Of a stretch of 64,000 nt of DNA, positions 31,775 through 47,778 are shown in pieces (within the stretch, counting starts at the first letter, position 1; every line of letters starts with the position of its first letter). The translations under genes were made by a program, and so were the position numbers. Origin of the DNA: Cupriavidus phytohabitans (GTDB lineage: Bacteria; Pseudomonadota; Gammaproteobacteria; Burkholderiales; Burkholderiaceae); contig NZ_AUFE01000020.1 of the NCBI RefSeq assembly GCF_000426345.1, forward strand, positions 1-64,000, given 5' to 3'. The notes under the pieces are model-generated. The model did no database searches, was not told the DNA's origin, and worked only from the letters and a program-made list of their open reading frames with translations.

Positions 31775-31921
31775 CTGAATTGTCGTGATTTGGATGGGGC
31801 TGCGGCGCAGCGACCGTAAGTCATCGCCAATTGCGGGCCGGGCGCCGGTGGAATTGCGTGGCAGTGGCGGGGGTCTAACCTGTGCCCGCAATGCACGCTG
31901 GCGATGCAAGGAGGGAACCCC

Positions 31922-32320
31922 ATGCGCTTCGGATATGGAATATTGCTTGCGGTGGTGTTGGCCAGCGGGTGCGTGGCTTATCCCTATGCCAGCGACGACT
32001 ACCTGGCCTATCCCGCCTACCCGGTCAGCTCACCGTACTACAGCGGCTATCCGGTCGCGCCCGGCTACCCCTATTACGGCCCCGGATACAGCAGCTACTA
32101 CGGCAGCTTTGCCTTTATCTATGGTGGCGGTGGCCACGGCTGGAGGCACGGACACCATGGACACCGCGGCTGGCACGGCGGCGGCCGTGGCAGAGGCGGC
32201 TGGGCTGCTGGCGGACATGGCGGACATGGCGGACATGGCGGACATGGCGGACATGGCGGACATGGCGGACATGGCGGACATGGCGGACATGGCGGACATG
32301 GCGGAGGCAGGGGCCGATGA
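31922..32320 (+). CDS. Lipoprotein rich in Tyr/Pro with a Gly-Gly-His repeat tail
   Basis: A 132-residue protein with AGGAGG before its ATG and a lipobox (VLASGC, cysteine about residue 17). The middle is rich in tyrosine, proline and glycine (YPYYGPGYSSYYGS). The second half is glycine/histidine-rich and ends in ten Gly-Gly-His units encoded by a perfect 9-base tandem repeat. Poly-histidine tails of this kind can bind nickel, zinc or copper, but metal binding is inferred only from composition. No neighbour supports a pathway. Confidence 0.7.
   Translation: MRFGYGILLAVVLASGCVAYPYASDDYLAYPAYPVSSPYYSGYPVAPGYPYYGPGYSSYYGSFAFIYGGGGHGWRHGHHGHRGWHGGGRGRGGWAAGGHGGHGGHGGHGGHGGHGGHGGHGGHGGHGGGRGR
32210..32299 (+). 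repeat. Tandem repeat, ten copies of GGCGGACAT
   Basis: Ten identical 9-base units within the lipoprotein gene encode Gly-Gly-His. Because the unit is a multiple of three, copy-number change would lengthen or shorten the tail without a frameshift. Confidence 0.95.
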
Positions 32321-33106: not shown

Positions 33107-34228
33107 CTAGCCGTCTTGTTCTTCCGCTTGTGCAGGCCCGAGCAGGTCCGCAGCGCGCGAGCGCTGCATGTCCGCCGCACGGAAATAGCGCACCACTGTG
33201 GCTACGCTGGCGTGGCCGGTCATCGCCATGGTCTCGGCCAGCGGCACCTGTTGCGCCGCCGCTTCGGTGACGAAACCCGCGCGCAGCGAATGCGCGGAGT
33301 AATCGCCCTCAAGTCCCGCCTGCGCGCAGCGCGCCTTGACGATGCGGCTCACTGCGGCATCGGACAAGCCTTCACCCACATGTCCGCCGCGCCGGATGCG
33401 GCGGAACAGCGGTCCGCCGGCAATTCCCGAAGCGGCCAGCCACGCCTCCAGTGCCTGTCCCGCTGCACCCGTCACCGGCTTGGCGGCATCGGCGTGGTCG
33501 CGGCCCGACTGGTTGGTCTTGGACCAGCCCAGCACGTAGACAAATTCACCCGGCGCGACACGCGTCAGGTTCTCCACCGTCGCGCGTGCGACCTCGGAAC
33601 GACGGCGGCCGCCGCTGGCCCATGCAAACAACAGCAGCGCGCGGTCACGGACGCCGCGCAACGAATCATCACAGGTAGCGAGCAGCCGCAGCAGCGGGTC
33701 GCGCGTCAGCGCGGCCTTGCGCGCCTGGCGGTGTCCGCGGCGCGCATAGGCGCGGCGGATGCCGGACATCAATTCGCGCACGGACGCGTCGGCACAAGGA
33801 TTGGGCAACTGCTGCATGCGGTGGGCCTTGGCCAGCACCGCAAGGCGGTGCGTCAGCGTGGACAGCGCGGGCGCGCCGGGTCGTGCCTTGTATCCATCAG
33901 CGACCAGCGCCTGGTCGATCGCCGGGGGTAGTTCACAGACCGGCCCGTGCGGCGTCTGCCGCGTAGCGTGGTCGACGATGAATTGAACCACGACGGCAGG
34001 AGCAAGCGGAAGCCGGGCCGGCTGGCGATAGCGCAGCCCGTGCCAGGCAGCCCAGTAACGCAGGGCAGAGCGGTAGCTCGCCACGGTGTTGGACGACTCG
34101 CCTTCGCGGCGCAGTGTGTTCGCGGCCTGTTCGGCGAGGGGATCCAGTTCAGACGGGCGGAGCGGCGCCGGGAATTCGACATCGGAGGCAAGCTGCGGTG
34201 GGTTGGCTAGCGGGTCAGCTGTTATCAT
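33107..34228 (-). CDS. Tyrosine recombinase (phage-integrase family)
   Basis: A 373-residue site-specific recombinase. The N-terminal SAM-like DNA-binding domain (AEQAANTLRREGESSNTVAS) is followed by a catalytic domain with the first arginine in GGRRRSEVA (about 207), the HSLR box (about 313), the TGHAS histidine (about 335) and the nucleophile in VVRYFRA (about 344). The ATG lies inside the AT-rich operator region, with no ribosome site, so it may be translated leaderless. It is divergent from a KfrA-like gene. Its partner site is unknown; no att repeat was seen. Confidence 0.9.
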   Translation of the reverse strand: MITADPLANPPQLASDVEFPAPLRPSELDPLAEQAANTLRREGESSNTVASYRSALRYWAAWHGLRYRQPARLPLAPAVVVQFIVDHATRQTPHGPVCELPPAIDQALVADGYKARPGAPALSTLTHRLAVLAKAHRMQQLPNPCADASVRELMSGIRRAYARRGHRQARKAALTRDPLLRLLATCDDSLRGVRDRALLLFAWASGGRRRSEVARATVENLTRVAPGEFVYVLGWSKTNQSGRDHADAAKPVTGAAGQALEAWLAASGIAGGPLFRRIRRGGHVGEGLSDAAVSRIVKARCAQAGLEGDYSAHSLRAGFVTEAAAQQVPLAETMAMTGHASVATVVRYFRAADMQRSRAADLLGPAQAEEQDG

Positions 34229-34330: not shown

Positions 34331-35293
34331 ATGGAAACGCTCCGCTCCCGAGGCATCAATCGCGACGACGTCTGGGCCGCCGCCGACAGCCTGCTCAAGG
34401 CAGGCCAGCGTCCGACCATCGAACGCATCCGCCTGCATCTGGGCCGCGGTTCGCCCAATACTGTCAGCCCCCACCTCGACGCTTGGTTCGCCGCGCTCGG
34501 CGGGCGATTGCAGGATCCGCAAGGCTTTGCGCCGAAGCCGGGTTGCCCGGAACCGGTCACCGAAGCGGCGCGTTACCTGTGGGAAGCTGCATTGCAGGTT
34601 GCCCAGGCGCAGGCGGAAACGGCGCTGACCCAGCGCGAAACGGCGCTGGCCGACGCGCAGGCGGCATTGGCCAGGGAACGGGAGGCGCTGGAGCAGGAGC
34701 GCCTGGTCATGCAGGCGCGGCTGGACGGTGCCGAAGCGGCGATGGCGGAGCTGACGCGCGCGCGGGACGAGGCGCTGGAGCGCGGCGCACAGGCCGAAGC
34801 CCGCGCTGCAGGCCTGCAGCAGCAGGTGGAGACGTTGCGAGCCGAGGCTGGCGTCGCGCTGGAGGCCCGTGCCTCGTTGCAGCGGGAATTCGCCGCGGAA
34901 CGCGGCGCGTGGGACCAGGAGCGCGAAACCATGACCGCCCGCGCCACGGCCAGCGAACGCCGGCTGGCGCTGGAACTGGATGCGGCCCGCATGGCGGGCA
35001 AGGAAGCGCAGAAGTTGCTGGAAGCAGAACGCAAGGCCGCGCTGGAGCGGCTGGCGCACGCTGCCGAAGCGGCTTCACGCCAGGGCGGCGAGATGATGCG
35101 GCTAAGCCAGTCGATTGCCGTACTGGAAGAACGCATCCGCCAGCGCGAGGCGATGCTTGTCGAATATCGCGAACAGAAGGGTGCCGGCAGCCAGGGCGTT
35201 GCCGCGGCGGGCCGGCGCGGGCGCCCGGCGCGTGGAGCACTGGCCGGCGGCGCGAGTGCCCTGCTGCGGACGCGGGCGGCGCCGGGCGGCTGA
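34331..35293 (+). CDS. KfrA-like DNA-binding coiled-coil protein
   Basis: A 320-residue protein. The N-terminal 70 residues (INRDDVWAAADSLLKAGQRP, TIERIRLHLGRGSPNTVSPH) match the KfrA N-terminal DNA-binding domain known from broad-host-range plasmids. Residues 85-280 form a long alanine/glutamate/arginine-rich coiled coil, and a short basic glycine-rich tail follows. Plasmid KfrA is an autorepressor that forms filaments and helps plasmid stability. Here it pairs with a chromosomal-type recombinase gene, suggesting a mobile or partition-like islet. Confidence 0.85.
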   Translation: METLRSRGINRDDVWAAADSLLKAGQRPTIERIRLHLGRGSPNTVSPHLDAWFAALGGRLQDPQGFAPKPGCPEPVTEAARYLWEAALQVAQAQAETALTQRETALADAQAALAREREALEQERLVMQARLDGAEAAMAELTRARDEALERGAQAEARAAGLQQQVETLRAEAGVALEARASLQREFAAERGAWDQERETMTARATASERRLALELDAARMAGKEAQKLLEAERKAALERLAHAAEAASRQGGEMMRLSQSIAVLEERIRQREAMLVEYREQKGAGSQGVAAAGRRGRPARGALAGGASALLRTRAAPGG

Positions 35294-35304: not shown

Positions 35305-35361
35305 TTACACCTGCGCGCCAGTGCGCAGCATGTGCTTCTGGATCTTGCCGCTGGTGGAATA
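35305..35361 (-). pseudogene. Remnant of an AMP-forming acyl-CoA synthetase (last 18 codons)
   Basis: Minus-strand translation gives YSTSGKIQKHMLRTGAQV followed by a stop. The STSGKIQKHMLR part is the A10 catalytic-lysine motif found at the extreme C-terminus of AMP-forming CoA ligases. Upstream of it the frame no longer resembles the family, and the LexA box of the helicase gene begins 60 bases away. The rest of the gene must have been lost when this region was rearranged. Confidence 0.55.
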
Positions 35362-35421: not shown

Positions 35422-35437
35422 CTGTATATTCATACAG
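35422..35437 (+). promoter_or_regulatory. LexA (SOS) box of the nuclease-helicase gene
   Basis: CTGTATATTCATACAG is a perfect CTG-N10-CAG palindrome-type site, nearly identical to the E. coli consensus CTGTATATATATACAG. It ends 22 bases before the start codon, so LexA bound there would block the promoter. Confidence 0.85.
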
Positions 35438-35459
35438 CCTTTTTAGCGTTCCAGCCTTC

Positions 35460-37781
35460 GTGTCCGTCGACCCACTTGCCGCCCCCGTTCGTGCCCCAGC
35501 TCCAGCGCAAGCTCCCGCCTACGTCGTCGCCGTGCGCGCGTTGTGCGACTTCACCGCCAGGGCAGGCGACCTCGACCTGCGCTTCGTGCCGACGCCAACC
35601 GCGCAGGAAGGCGTCGCCGGCCACTCCCTGGTGACCGGCAGGCGCGGACCGGACTACCAGGCGGAAGTGCCGCTGTCGGCGGATTTTGGGCCCTTGCACG
35701 TTCGCGGCCGTGCCGATGGCTTCGATCCGGGGGCCAACCGCCTGGAAGAAATCAAGACCGTGCGCGGCGAGGCCGCCGTGCCGGATAACCACCGCCACCT
35801 GCACTGGGCGCAGGCAAAGATCTATGGCTGCCTGATGTGCCGCAAACTCGGATTGCCCGGGATCGACGTGGCCGTGGTCTATTTCGACATCATCGGCCAG
35901 CGCGAGCACCCGGTGGTGCAGCACTTCACCGCGGACGCGCTCGATGCGTTCTTCGTCCAGACCTGCGAACGCTTCCTGCGGTGGGCCCAGGCCGAACTGG
36001 CGCACCGGCAGGCCCGCGATGCCGCGCTGGCGCGGCTGGCCTTTCCGCACCCGGCATTCCGAACTGGCCAGCGCGAACTGGCGCAGGCGGTCTACAACGC
36101 CAACCGCGCCGGGCGCACCCTGCTGGCCCAGGCGCCGACAGGCATCGGCAAGTCGGTCGGCACGCTGTTCCCGCTGCTCAAGGCGATGCCGGGGCAGGGC
36201 ATCGACAAGGCGTTCTTCCTGTCGGCGCGCTCCACCGGGCGCGGCGTCGCGCTGCAGGCCGCCCAGGCGCTGCGCAGCCACGGCGCGCAGCCGCTGCGCG
36301 TGATCGAACTGGTGGCGCGAGACAAGGCCTGCGAGCATCCGGAGCTCGCCTGCCACGGCGAATCCTGCCCGCTGGCGCGCGGCTTCTACGATCGCCTGCC
36401 GGCCGCGCGCGAAGCCGCCTGCGATGTGCCGGTGCGTAACCGTGCCGCGGTGCGCACGCTGGCGCTGGCGCATGGCATCTGCCCCTACTACCTGGCGCAG
36501 GAACTGGTGCGCTGGAGCGATGTGGTGGTGGCGGACTACAACTATTTCTTCGACCGCAGCGCGCTGCTGTATGCGCTGACGATCGCCAACGGCTGGCGCG
36601 CAAGCGTGCTGGTCGACGAGGCGCACAACCTGGTCGAGCGCGGCCGCGCCATGTACACCGCCGAGCTGGATCCGCACGCGCTGCGCGAAGCCCGGCGCGG
36701 CGCGCCCGGCGCGGTGGCCAGGCCGCTGGCCCGGCTGGCGCGCCACTGGAGCGCGCTGGCGCGGCAGGCCGACGTTGCCTATGAAGTCTTGCCGGAAGTG
36801 CCCGCGCCCCTGCTGCGGGCGCTCGATGACTGCTGCGCGGCCGTGCTGGCGCACATGACCGAGCAGCCCGCGGCGATCGACCCGGCGCTGCAGCGCTTTT
36901 ATTTCGATGCGCTGCATTTCAGCCGGCTGGCAGAGCAGCTCGATGCCAGTTCGCTGTTCGATATCCAGCGGCCAGCCCTCGCCGCAAACGCCCGGCGCGG
37001 CAACCATGCGCGCCTGTGCCTGCGCAACGTCATCCCGGCGCCGTTCCTGCGGCCGCGCTTTGCCGCGGCGCATTCCGTCACGCTGTTCTCGGCCACGCTG
37101 GACCCGGCCGCCTACTACCTCGATACGCTGGGTTTGCCTGCCGACTGCGCGCGCGTGGCGGTGCCGTCGCCGTTCCGGGCGGAACAACTGTCAGTACGTA
37201 TCGCCAGCCGGATTTCCACCCGCTATGCGCGGCGCGGCCAGTCGCTGCCGGACATTGCCGCGCTGATGGCGAACCAGTTTCGCGCCCGCCGCGGCAACTA
37301 CCTCGCGTTCTTCAGCAGCCACGAGTACCTGCAGCAGGCCGTGTCGAATTTCACGCAGGCCCATCCCGACATTCCGTACTGGGTCCAGTCGCGCGGCATG
37401 GACGAGGCGGCGCAGGCCGCCTTCCTGTCCGCCTTTGTCCCGGATGGCGCAGGCATCGGCTTTGCCGTGCTGGGCGGCGCCTTTGCCGAGGGCGTGGACC
37501 TGCCCGGCGAGCGCCTGATCGGCGCCTTCGTCGCCACGCTGGGGCTGCCGCAGTTCAACGCGGTCAACGAGCAGTTCCGCGCGCGCATGCAGTCGGCCTT
37601 CGGCCAGGGCTACGACTATGCCTATCTCTATCCGGGCTTGCGCAAGGTGGTGCAGGCCGCGGGCAGGGTGATCCGCACGCAGCAGGACGAAGGCGTGGTC
37701 TACCTGATCGACGACCGCTTTGCCGCGCCGGAGGTGCGCCGGCTGCTGCCGGAATGGTGGCAAATCGGCCCGGCGGCGTAG
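35460..37781 (+). CDS. XPD/DinG-type DNA helicase with N-terminal PD-(D/E)XK nuclease-like domain
   Basis: A 773-residue protein. The first 180 residues resemble a Cas4/RecB-type nuclease (GRADGF near 85 and EEIKT near 97 supply the D...ExK motif). A superfamily 2 helicase follows: Walker A APTGIGKS near 224, four cysteines for an iron-sulfur cluster (about 290, 297, 302 and 340), DEAH box VDEAHN near 384 and motif VI QAAGRVIRTQ near 733. It should unwind and perhaps cut damaged or branched DNA. The start is a GTG at 35460 without a clear ribosome site. A LexA box lies just upstream. Confidence 0.88.
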   Translation: MSVDPLAAPVRAPAPAQAPAYVVAVRALCDFTARAGDLDLRFVPTPTAQEGVAGHSLVTGRRGPDYQAEVPLSADFGPLHVRGRADGFDPGANRLEEIKTVRGEAAVPDNHRHLHWAQAKIYGCLMCRKLGLPGIDVAVVYFDIIGQREHPVVQHFTADALDAFFVQTCERFLRWAQAELAHRQARDAALARLAFPHPAFRTGQRELAQAVYNANRAGRTLLAQAPTGIGKSVGTLFPLLKAMPGQGIDKAFFLSARSTGRGVALQAAQALRSHGAQPLRVIELVARDKACEHPELACHGESCPLARGFYDRLPAAREAACDVPVRNRAAVRTLALAHGICPYYLAQELVRWSDVVVADYNYFFDRSALLYALTIANGWRASVLVDEAHNLVERGRAMYTAELDPHALREARRGAPGAVARPLARLARHWSALARQADVAYEVLPEVPAPLLRALDDCCAAVLAHMTEQPAAIDPALQRFYFDALHFSRLAEQLDASSLFDIQRPALAANARRGNHARLCLRNVIPAPFLRPRFAAAHSVTLFSATLDPAAYYLDTLGLPADCARVAVPSPFRAEQLSVRIASRISTRYARRGQSLPDIAALMANQFRARRGNYLAFFSSHEYLQQAVSNFTQAHPDIPYWVQSRGMDEAAQAAFLSAFVPDGAGIGFAVLGGAFAEGVDLPGERLIGAFVATLGLPQFNAVNEQFRARMQSAFGQGYDYAYLYPGLRKVVQAAGRVIRTQQDEGVVYLIDDRFAAPEVRRLLPEWWQIGPAA

Positions 37782-37916
37782 AAATTACACGGCGTGATGG
37801 GCTTGGCCAGGCCGCTGGCGGCCCCGCCGGGCCAGAACGAATCTGGCACGAATCCGGCAGCAATGCGACCATGCGTGCCGACCGCATCCCGTCGTCATCG
37901 AACCAAGGACCCGACC

Positions 37917-38240
37917 ATGCCCATGACCCAGCATTACGCGGCCACCGAGCCGCCCCGTACCGAAGTGGATGCGCTGAACGGCGGCACCGTGCTGGAGTTC
38001 GGCGCCCCGTGGTGCGGCTTCTGCCAGCGTGCGCAGCCCGCGCTTGCCGAAGCGTTCGCCGTGCATCCGGGGCTGCGCCATATCAAGGTCGAGGACGGCA
38101 GCGGGCGCCCGCTCGGCCGCTCCTTCCGCATCAAGCTGTGGCCGACGCTGGTATTCCTGCGCGACGGGCAGGAAGTCGCCAGACTGATAAGGCCGACCGA
38201 GGCGGATCCGATCCGGGAAGCCATGCGGCGCATCAGTTGA
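37917..38240 (+). CDS. Thioredoxin-family protein
   Basis: A 107-residue cytoplasmic thioredoxin-fold protein. The active site WCGFC (residues 32-36) replaces the usual WCGPC; the phenylalanine should shift the redox potential. The cis-proline is present in LWPTLVFL, and the strand-turn IKVEDGSGRPLGRSFRIK is typical. It lacks a signal peptide. It is preceded by the helicase gene (136 bases), but nothing links them beyond position. Confidence 0.85.
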   Translation: MPMTQHYAATEPPRTEVDALNGGTVLEFGAPWCGFCQRAQPALAEAFAVHPGLRHIKVEDGSGRPLGRSFRIKLWPTLVFLRDGQEVARLIRPTEADPIREAMRRIS

Positions 38241-43620: not shown

Positions 43621-43824
43621 GGAGCGGGGTCTTGAAGACACAAGGAGTTCGGGGGCGCGCACCGCCGCCTGCCGCTCCACGCTTCATGGCGGCGCAGTCG
43701 GGCAGGGGCGATGTGTGGAAGCGAAGTGTAGCCAAACCTTCGCATTCCATTCATGATTTAATATTAGCTTTACCATTCGCTTTGTTCATGGATGCGTGCC
43801 GCCACGATCCAGCCTGAGTTCCAC

Positions 43825-44729
43825 ATGCCTATCGATATCCGCGCGCTGCGCTACTTCGTCGAGACCGCCCGCCTGCGCAGCTTCACGCAGGCGGCCGGCT
43901 CACTGTTCGTCACCCAGTCGACCATCAGCAAGATGGTGAAGCAGCTCGAGGACGAGGTCGGCCAGCCGCTGCTGATCCGCGAAGGCAAGAGCGTGCGCCT
44001 GACCGACGTTGGACGCGTGGTGTACGAACGCGGGCAGGAGGCGCTCGGCGTTGTCCACCGGCTGACGCTGGAGGTGGCCGACCTGTCATCGCTGGGCCGC
44101 GGGCAGCTGACCGTCGGCATCCCGCCGATGTCAACCTGTTTTTTTCGCCGGCAGTCAGCGCGTTCCGGCAGCGCTATCCCAACCTGCAGCTGACGCTGGA
44201 CGAGCACGGCGGGCAGGTGGTCGAGCAACTGGTTGCCAGCGGCGAACTGGAAGTCGGGGCCACCGTGCTACCCGGCGACAGCGGGCTGGCGCTGGAGACC
44301 CGGCAGTTCGGCCGGCACCCGATCTGGGCGGTCGGGCCGCGCAAGGCGAAGTGGGCGCGCGGGCGTACCGTCACGCTGGGTGCGCTGCGCGACGAGCCGC
44401 TGGTGATGCTGACCGACGACTTCTCGCTGACGCGCAAGCTCAGCCAGGCCTTTCTGCAAGCGCGCATCGAGCCGCGCGTGGTGGCGCGTAGCGGCCACTG
44501 GGATTTCCTGGCCTCGATGGCGGCGGCGGGACTGGGCACCACCTTCCTGCCGCAGCCGCTGGCCGAGCGCCTGCAGGGCCAGGACACGCTCGCCATGGCG
44601 CGCCTGACCGAACCCGCGATGGACTGGGCCATGGCGCACATCTGGTCGCCTGGGCGCTATTTGTCGCACGCGGCGCGCGCGTGGCTGGCGGTCTGTGACG
44701 AGGTCCTCGGGGAGGGGGAGAGGCGCTAG
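43825..44729 (+). pseudogene. LysR-family regulator with an apparent one-base deletion
   Basis: The first 102 codons encode a normal LysR DNA-binding domain (IRALRYFVETARLRSFTQAA) and the start of the effector domain up to VGIPPM. At 44130/44131 the frame is lost; adding one base restores VNLFFSPAVSAFRQRYPNL and the rest of the domain to the end at 44729. One base is missing either after ATG or in the seven-T run. The gene would otherwise be a full-length regulator of about 301 residues, divergent from the AaeXAB-like operon. It is broken or a sequencing error. Confidence 0.85.
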
Positions 44730-45435: not shown

Positions 45436-47778
45436 TCACAGTTCCAGCACCAGCCGGCACCCGCCGGCCGCACGCGAGCAGCACGCCATCATCCGGTCGT
45501 TGGCGTCACGCTCGCTGCGGGTCAGCACCACGTCGCGGTGATCGACCTGGCCGGCCAGCACGCGTACTTCGCACGAGCCGCACAGGCCTTCCTCGCAATC
45601 GCTCTGCACATCGATATTGGCGCCGCGCAGCGCCGCGAGCAGGGTCTGGCCGGCAGGCACCTCCATGACCAGTCCGGAATCCTTCAGCTCGACGGTGAAG
45701 GGTTGCTCCTTCGACGCGTCCAGCGTGCCCAGCCGCGACACGAAATGCTCGACCCGCAGCGCGTCCTGCGGCCACGCCGCGCAGGCACCGGCGAGCGCAT
45801 CGAGCAGCCGTTGCGGACCGCAGGCGTAGACGTGGGTGCGCGGCTGCGGCGTGGCCAGCAATGCGGCGAAGTCGGCGCGGCGGCCTTCGTCGCCTGCATA
45901 GATATGCAGGCGCTCGCCATGCAGGGCCTGTAGCGTGTCCAGCATCGCCATCGACCGCCGCGAGCGGCCGCAGTAATGGATCTCGTAGTCGATGCCGAGC
46001 TGGCGCGCGCGCCGCGCCATCGCGCTGACGGGCGTGATGCCGATGCCGCCGGCAATCAGGATGGCGCGCCCGCAGCCCTCGTCGAAACGGAAATGGTTGC
46101 GCGGGCCGCGGATGCGCAAGCGGTCGCCCGCCTTGACGCTGTCGTGCACCCAGGCCGAGCCGCCACGGCTCTCGGGCTCGCGCAGCACGGCGATTTCCAG
46201 TACGGCGGCATCGTCGGGATCGCCGCACAGCGAATACTGGCGCGACAACCCGGTATCGCCGCACTCCACGTCGATATGCGAGCCCGGCGCCCAGCGCGGC
46301 AGCGGCTTGCCGTCCGGCGCCGCCAGCCGCAGCCGCAGCACGCCGTCGGCGGCAGGGGCGATGCTTTCCACCACCACGGTGCGCGCGCTGGTGTGCGCCG
46401 ACGGCTCGCCAATGCGCACGGGCTGCCGTTGCGTGAGTAGTGCAGGGTTGCGGCGCTCCGGGTTCCGCGCAGGATCCCATTCGACCAGCAGGTGCTCGGG
46501 GCCACGGAACGAAGTGTTGGGCACGTAGGTGAAGACCTGTTCCGCCAGCCGCATATGCGGCAGCCGGCGCGTCAGCTCTTCCAGGAAGATCTGCATTTCC
46601 ATGCGCGCCAGGTTCTTGCCCATGCACTGGTGCGAGCCGTAGCCGAAGGTCAGCTGCTCGCTGGCGTTGTCGCGGCGGATGTCGAACAGGTCGGCATCAG
46701 CGAAGTGGCGCTCGTCATGGTTGGCCGACGAGGTCACGATCAGCAGCTTGCTGCCGGCGGCCACCCGGATGCCGGCCACCTCCGTGTCGCGCGTGACCAG
46801 CCGGCGCCACGCCGCCACCGAGCCGTTATGGCGCAGGCATTCTTCCACCGCGTTGGGAATCAGCGAGGGATCATCGCAGATCTCGCGCCATGCATCCGGG
46901 TGCTGCAGCAGCAGCTTGATGGCGTTGGCCGACGCATTGGCCGTGGTCTCGTGCGCGGCGACGATGCCGGCCATCATCATCGAATGCAGGTAAGAGTCGG
47001 TGACAACCTCGGGCAGTGCCTTCTGCTTGCGCAGGCCGTACTGCATCCATCCCGAGCCTGACGGGTCTTCGCGCATCTTGTCCAGGATGCGCCCGGCCAG
47101 CTGCCAGAAGTTGCCGACCGCATGCGCCACCGCGACCTGTTCCTCGGGCCTGGGGCGGCCCCAGGTGTTGACCGTATGGGCGATGGAGTACTGGCGCAGC
47201 AGGTCCATGTCCTCTTCGGGCACGCCCAGGAAATGCAGCGCCACGGTCAGCGGCACTTCCCACAGCATCTGGTCGACCAGGTCGGCGCGGCCGTCGTCGA
47301 TAAAGCGGTCGACGTACTCGCGCGCCAGGCGCCGCACCATCGGCTCGTGATGCGCCAGCTCGGCGGGCGTGAACGGATCCATCAGCGCGCGCCGGCGTGG
47401 CATGTGCGCGGGTTCGTCCTCGTTGACCAGCGTGCGGTTCATGGCATACCCGTACGAGGCCAGCACCGCGTTGGCTTCGTCGCCGGTGGGCGTGATCTTC
47501 TCCAGCGCGATCGACGGGCTGAAGGTGATGTTGTCGCGGAAAATCGCCTTGATGTCGTCGTAGCGCGTGACCACCCAGTAGCCAAGCTTCGGGCTGTAGA
47601 ACACAGGCTCCTGCTCGCGCGACCAGCGCACATACTCGGGCGGATCCTGCTGGTAGCCGTCGCCGAAGGGATCGAACTCGGCCGCCTTGTGGCTGTCCGG
47701 GCAGCCATTGGGGGCGGTGAAGGCGGAATGGTCGACGGGACAGCCGCCGCGCGCGGTGTCGGGGGAGGGGGTGGCCAT
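45436..47778 (-). CDS. Self-sufficient cytochrome P450 (CYP116B type) fused to a phthalate-dioxygenase-like reductase
   Basis: A 780-residue monooxygenase carrying its own electron supply. Residues 1-430 are P450: I-helix AGIVAAHETTANAS near 280, heme cysteine in FGYGSHQCMGKNLARME near 385. An FMN reductase domain follows (SRQYSLCGDPDD, ILIAGGIGITPVSAMA), then a 2Fe-2S ferredoxin domain with CEEGLCGSC at about 729-737. This is the CYP116B layout known from C. metallidurans and Rhodococcus. It uses NADPH to insert oxygen into small organics. It follows a Bug-receptor gene on the same strand by 82 bases. Confidence 0.95.
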   Translation of the reverse strand: MATPSPDTARGGCPVDHSAFTAPNGCPDSHKAAEFDPFGDGYQQDPPEYVRWSREQEPVFYSPKLGYWVVTRYDDIKAIFRDNITFSPSIALEKITPTGDEANAVLASYGYAMNRTLVNEDEPAHMPRRRALMDPFTPAELAHHEPMVRRLAREYVDRFIDDGRADLVDQMLWEVPLTVALHFLGVPEEDMDLLRQYSIAHTVNTWGRPRPEEQVAVAHAVGNFWQLAGRILDKMREDPSGSGWMQYGLRKQKALPEVVTDSYLHSMMMAGIVAAHETTANASANAIKLLLQHPDAWREICDDPSLIPNAVEECLRHNGSVAAWRRLVTRDTEVAGIRVAAGSKLLIVTSSANHDERHFADADLFDIRRDNASEQLTFGYGSHQCMGKNLARMEMQIFLEELTRRLPHMRLAEQVFTYVPNTSFRGPEHLLVEWDPARNPERRNPALLTQRQPVRIGEPSAHTSARTVVVESIAPAADGVLRLRLAAPDGKPLPRWAPGSHIDVECGDTGLSRQYSLCGDPDDAAVLEIAVLREPESRGGSAWVHDSVKAGDRLRIRGPRNHFRFDEGCGRAILIAGGIGITPVSAMARRARQLGIDYEIHYCGRSRRSMAMLDTLQALHGERLHIYAGDEGRRADFAALLATPQPRTHVYACGPQRLLDALAGACAAWPQDALRVEHFVSRLGTLDASKEQPFTVELKDSGLVMEVPAGQTLLAALRGANIDVQSDCEEGLCGSCEVRVLAGQVDHRDVVLTRSERDANDRMMACCSRAAGGCRLVLEL

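Follow-up and report, generated by a model that had tools for sequence, protein, structure and literature searches.

A predicted LexA-controlled nuclease-helicase of the EndoDinG type in Cupriavidus and its FAN1-linked relatives

We analysed a stretch of 64,000 nucleotides of Cupriavidus phytohabitans DNA, called the window below. Its plus strand carries, at 35460..37781, a gene with a predicted GTG start that encodes a 773-amino-acid protein combining a PD-(D/E)XK nuclease with an Fe-S XPD/DinG helicase (EndoDinG; see below for the family assignment). The N-terminal RecB/Cas4-like nuclease domain (residues 21–191; 35520..36032, plus strand) features H55, E69, D86, E97-x-K99 and Q118xxxY122, and the XPD/DinG helicase core, as delimited by Pfam, alignment and fold, spans residues 196–768 (36045..37763, plus strand). 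The alignment places the four cysteines of the Fe-S domain, C291, C298, C303 and C341, at 36330..36482 on the same strand, and we take residues 226–232, 386–389 and 732–739 to be the Walker A, DEAH and QxxGRxxR motifs, respectively. The nuclease and helicase motifs are intact.

Pfam recognised DEAD_2 and Helicase_C_2 in the window protein and gave no match to its N-terminus. PDDEXK_1 matched 8 of 26 aligned N-terminal domains (best E-value, 4.5e-9), the window's own domain not being among them. The residues H55, E69, D86, E97, K99, Q118 and Y122 are invariant in all 26 N-domains, Listeria and Enterococcus included, and each is present in 69 of the 70 sequences of a larger alignment that includes one locus twice as well as near-duplicates. 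In the single exception, presumably L083, the ORF as read starts past the motifs, though the DNA before it resembles them. The cysteines C291, C298, C303 and C341 occur in 70, 66, 70 and 70 of the 70 sequences, respectively. AlphaFold2 modelled the whole protein with a pLDDT of 88.4 and the N-domain with 92.9; the top Foldseek match of both was the DinG of Finegoldia magna (9kqh), followed for the N-domain by SSO0001 (a Cas4 family protein), RecE, EXO5, AdnAB, AddAB and lambda exonuclease, at modest TM scores of about 0.4–0.55. Motifs, PDDEXK_1 matches among the aligned N-domains and predicted folds agree on a PD-(D/E)XK nuclease joined to an Fe-S XPD/DinG helicase, the fusion that a preliminary description of this DNA had proposed. 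Homologues also appear in 16 phage records, of which the 10 listed lack annotation and possibly represent host DNA.

A LexA/SOS box, CTGTATATTCATACAG, lies at 35422..35437 on the plus strand, its end being 22 bases from the GTG at 35460; it is identified by sequence match, by weight matrix and by conservation in Cupriavidus homologues. With up to three mismatches allowed, CTGTATATTCATACAG occurs once in the 64-kb window, against an expectation of 0.02, and a weight matrix built without this type of box scored it at 24.6, the runner-up in the 64 kb reaching 12.1. The bare core CTGTN8ACAG alone is no evidence, because 0.55 occurrences are expected in the window by chance and the C. phytohabitans genome contains 42 such sites, the same number as the reversed control gives. 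A consensus scan revealed no sigma-70 promoter near the box. Elsewhere in the window, a weak LexA-like palindrome, CTGCATAGATATGCAG (45894-45909), falls within a P450 fusion ORF and is probably a chance occurrence.

An exact-core LexA box was found just ahead of the gene in all 38 Cupriavidus homologues examined, which were taken from 51 gene-bearing genomes; the reversed pattern was found at none of the 38 loci within 200 bases upstream. The boxes fall into three variants, present at 24, 8 and 6 loci. Relative to gene starts extrapolated from the alignment, the box is strictly upstream at 28 of the 38 loci and lies, at the other 10, within a stretch aligning to the variable N-terminus. In the C. 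phytohabitans genome, boxes also precede lexA (scores of 18.6 and 13.2), recA (16.6), uvrA (22.0) and a gene with an IMS domain (26.2), so that the EndoDinG box outscores those of lexA, recA and uvrA and ranks below that of the IMS gene. A near-palindromic box close to the start, its retention in relatives and the presence of lexA and recA with similar boxes support a predicted SOS/LexA control of the EndoDinG gene. The preliminary description had placed a near-consensus LexA site 22 bases before the gene, had inferred SOS control from it and had suggested a search upstream of homologues; the site is confirmed, and its conservation supports the inference. Other strong LexA-type boxes of this genome (L092, L095, L096, L097 and L098) lie near ORFs that mostly have no Pfam name and could be unrecognised SOS genes.

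A KfrA_N gene (34331..35293, plus strand) and, beside it, a tyrosine recombinase gene (33107..34228, minus strand) adjoin the module in the window, as had been described. A kfrA homologue was found in 9 of 24 Cupriavidus genomes and in 8 of the 21 that bear the helicase; seven of these eight homologues are at least 1.8 kb away from it or on a different contig. Within a 1.5-kb flank, kfrA is next to the helicase at 4 of 38 loci (the window's own, G282, G232 and G243) and partly so in G260. Between kfrA and the helicase, the relatives closest to the window (G003 and G019) have a further gene, judged by its motifs to be presumably an acyl-CoA synthetase gene, of which the window retains the 3′ end alone (35305..35361, minus strand). 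A thioredoxin-fold gene (37914..38240, plus strand) is a commoner neighbour, occurring downstream in 29 of 38 Cupriavidus genomes within the 1.5-kb flank, and those neighbours that were tested have metabolic, regulatory or efflux functions. We therefore rejected KfrA and the recombinase as functional partners, their adjacency not being conserved across Cupriavidus, and the anti-element role that had been suggested on the strength of these neighbours is unsupported. Two further features of the window deserve mention: a LysR-type regulator gene appears to be split (43792-44193 and 44217-44729, plus strand), perhaps by a frameshift or a sequencing error, the Pfam check having covered the first ORF (43792-44193), and a small ORF (31904-32320, plus strand) encodes a product with a long run of GGH repeats.

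By its sequence, the window protein is a member of the EndoDinG subgroup, which was named in 2025 (section 3.7 of PMC11981726). It has an N-terminal PD-(D/E)XK domain with the H, E, D, E and K residues, the XPD/DinG motor domains and the four Fe-S cysteines, and this set is the same as that of the EndoDinG of B. bacteriovorus HD100 (PMC11981726). The activity claimed there for EndoDinG rests on unpublished data; the main text of that article does not mention FAN1, VRR or Burkholderia, and LexA is absent from its section on EndoDinG. The F. magna DinG (9kqh) is a full-length homologue of about 30% identity (E-value, 4e-101; Foldseek TM, 0.78/0.82) with the same two-part layout; the entry was released on 2025-12-03, and no paper on the structure was found in the literature searched. 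LexA sites were predicted in 2012 before beta-proteobacterial ‘Helicase c2’ genes, in a set that holds Cupriavidus and Ralstonia species (PMC3323433). These are the same kind of predicted site as ours, and the genes concerned may correspond to EndoDinG; the main text of that article lacks nuclease and Fanconi/VRR terms.

Other DinG-like families fit less well. E. coli DinG and YoaA are both SOS-induced XPD-type helicases (PMC11981726), and both lack a nuclease domain; against the NCBIfam equivalog cut-offs of 598 for the E. coli-type DinG and 680 for YoaA, the window protein scored 72.5 and 86.5 bits. The ExoDinG proteins (the DinG of S. aureus and B. subtilis) likewise have a nuclease domain ahead of the DinG helicase, but it is a 3′-5′ exonuclease of a different kind, and they are called not LexA-regulated (PMC11981726). 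The window protein scored 44.6 bits against the dinG_rel cut-off of 547.7, and its N-domain is PD-(D/E)XK-like, not DnaQ-type. For the CasDinG of type IV CRISPR systems the score was 12.7 bits against the csf4 equivalog cut-off of 400, and the four Fe-S cysteines of the window protein contrast with the vestigial Fe-S domain of CasDinG. Another gene of the C. phytohabitans genome (L206) exceeds the YoaA cut-off with 885.9 bits. The two further Helicase_C_2 proteins of this genome are this YoaA and a PDC-S28-type protein (L207, contig C40), which scored 1024 bits against PDC-S28, a candidate defence family in PADLOC.

In those loci of the family Burkholderiaceae where the helicase lacks an adjacent box, a full-length FAN1 is encoded by the ORF that runs up to the beginning of the helicase gene, as judged from FAN1_HTH, FANC_SAP and VRR_NUC and from its best PDB match, 4r89. 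It is homologous over nearly its full length to this bacterial FAN1 of P. aeruginosa (PaFAN1, PA1865). We rejected the notion that the Burkholderia-type genomes lack the box, which lies about 1.7–1.9 kb upstream of the helicase, ahead of FAN1. Among 299 family genomes, the search found FAN1 in 96, none of them Cupriavidus. In the 88 of these 96 that had a helicase position among the matches listed (the other 8 were left out of the comparison), FAN1 is directly upstream of the helicase on the same strand in 84, with a gap of -28 to 290 bp (median, 8 bp). In the four exceptions FAN1 is on a separate contig, and each of these FAN1 genes has an exact-core box of its own; of the two corresponding helicases that were read, one (G047) has a box and the other (G073) has no exact box in 2 kb. 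The exact-core box heads the FAN1-helicase unit in 15 of the 18 family heads read, those of G166, G120 and G219 lacking it. No exact box was found for the helicases of G028 (in 1.5 kb) and G428 (near the start).

We also inspected the best 80 of at least 328 named loci. FAN1 adjoins the helicase in 51 of these 80, and 29 have none alongside. Their heads contain an exact-core box in 27 cases (23 with FAN1 and 4 without), against 0 for the reversed control, a near-exact site in 22 more (p ≤ 0.01 against 1760 control windows) and no box at this threshold in 31; some of these loci come from genomes or genera that fed the matrix and are therefore not fully independent of it. FAN1 was found in 18 of 18 genomes of a Pseudomonas-type genus, and all 12 loci read there have FAN1 followed by the helicase, headed by an exact-core box in eight and by a site one base off in four. 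None of the genomes searched in this genus has a FAN1 nearly identical to that of P. aeruginosa, the best match being 64%. FAN1 also precedes the helicase in six of the more distant loci read (G030, G483, G593, G511, G616 and G674), including three (G511, G616 and G674) whose helicases are 34–36% identical to that of the window; a seventh, G428, has no FAN1 before the helicase. An exact-core box stands at the FAN1 head in G030 and in G483; G616 has a site of unsure position relative to the start, and the other three have none. From this arrangement we infer that FAN1 and EndoDinG are co-transcribed in relatives.

Of the 60 Cupriavidus genomes searched, 51 contain EndoDinG, as do 48 of the 54 good genomes among them; one of the nine genomes without it is only 54% complete. 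FAN1 was found in none of the 60 with the same query that detected it in the 96 family genomes, the C. phytohabitans genome contains no VRR_NUC, and no FAN1 lies directly upstream of EndoDinG in the window. Cupriavidus thus appears to have lost FAN1 while keeping the helicase-nuclease and the box, the direction of change being our reading of the distribution. The simplest history would be an old LexA-headed FAN1-EndoDinG unit from which FAN1 was subsequently lost in Cupriavidus. Neither this absence nor a LexA-controlled FAN1-EndoDinG unit was found described in the open-licence literature searched, and both are apparently new. EndoDinG itself (2025), its solved relative 9kqh, the 2012 LexA predictions before Helicase c2 genes and bacterial FAN1 are already known; given PMC11981726 and PMC3323433, neither the fusion nor the LexA site is new.

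We consider that EndoDinG is an SOS-induced repair enzyme and that the FAN1-EndoDinG pair most probably acts on DNA that is crosslinked or blocked in some other way, a reading to which we assign a probability of roughly 0.6. FAN1 and XPD-family helicases both act in human crosslink repair. One argument for the pair is that, in Burkholderia-type genera, Pseudomonas and halomonads, EndoDinG is usually the gene immediately following FAN1. FAN1 is a 5′-flap nuclease that acts in crosslink repair and unhooks interstrand crosslinks (PMC9635880), and sharing an operon-like unit with it would make EndoDinG a probable component of a bacterial pathway for the repair of blocked or crosslinked DNA. An operon-like position is no proof of a common substrate. 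The helicase can presumably also act alone, since it occurs without an adjoining FAN1 in Cupriavidus, in two annotated Firmicutes records and in the above 29 of the best 80 named loci.

In the mechanism that we propose, LexA bound to the box would keep EndoDinG expression low until, upon DNA damage, activated RecA brings about the cleavage of LexA and EndoDinG is made, as the conserved box suggests. The Fe-S XPD-type motor would then run 5′ to 3′ on single-stranded DNA, the direction in which XPD-family motors are described to move, and open the blocked fork or lesion. The tethered RecB/Cas4-like domain should cut DNA and would act on the exposed strand; the motor and nuclease activities are predicted from the intact motifs and from relatives. 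Where both enzymes are present, EndoDinG would open and trim, and FAN1 would incise around the lesion. A bolder and tentative version, possible in our view, is an SOS-controlled Fanconi-like module shared by several proteobacterial groups, in which a LexA-headed unit combines FAN1 with a FANCJ/XPD-family helicase carrying a RecB-type nuclease; in Cupriavidus the nuclease domain might replace the dropped FAN1 and do the unhooking or trimming alone.

EndoDinG could instead be a general SOS helicase that clears forks and R-loops in the manner of DinG and YoaA, with the nuclease trimming flaps, FAN1 being a mere co-regulated neighbour and crosslinks no special substrate. The XPD/DinG-type core is in keeping with this, as is the retention of the enzyme without FAN1 in Cupriavidus and alone in the two Firmicutes records, and published work on DinG and YoaA connects them with R-loops and the repair of forks, without singling out crosslinks. 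The YoaA of E. coli is induced in the SOS response (PMC11981726), and the YoaA orthologue of C. phytohabitans (L206, contig C70) has no LexA-like site in 5 kb (best score, 2.4), so that EndoDinG may have taken the SOS slot. We nevertheless regard this explanation as unlikely, because the pairing with FAN1 persists even where helicase identity has dropped to the 34–36% of G511, G616 and G674, beyond what a mere neighbour would be expected to show.

Another candidate role is the processing of broken ends, with EndoDinG as an AddAB/AdnAB-like nuclease-helicase that trims them for RecA loading during the SOS response. The matches of the nuclease domain to AddAB, AdnAB and RecE are consistent with it; however, FAN1 is the usual neighbour, no Chi-recognition part was recognised and the motor is of the XPD-type Fe-S class, unlike the SF1 motors of AddAB, making this role improbable. 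An anti-plasmid or anti-phage effector working with the KfrA/recombinase module, which the adjoining genes and a match of the window protein to the PADLOC typeIV_DinG model might suggest, is very improbable, as kfrA is not a conserved partner, the tested neighbours are of the kinds listed above, the gene is too widespread in Cupriavidus (51 of 60 genomes) to resemble a patchy defence gene, and the PADLOC match, which we rejected as defence evidence, is non-specific because the ordinary YoaA of the same genome scores higher (499.9 against 403.6 bits).

No partner or regulator is assigned to bacterial FAN1 in the parts of the literature searched, and the LexA-boxed unit suggests both. The portions of the Burkholderia and Pseudomonas expression literature that were searched contained no mention of the FAN1 and helicase genes. 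Cupriavidus, as an apparent natural case of FAN1 loss, offers a setting in which the helicase-nuclease is testable alone. In P. aeruginosa, if PA1866 is the helicase, a LexA-boxed unit could account for the UV-C induction of both PA1865 and PA1866: PA1865 (PaFAN1) is reported to be induced by UV-C and ciprofloxacin and repressed by hydrogen peroxide, and PA1866 to be UV-C-induced, both genes lying outside the three known P. aeruginosa regulons (PMC12796719).
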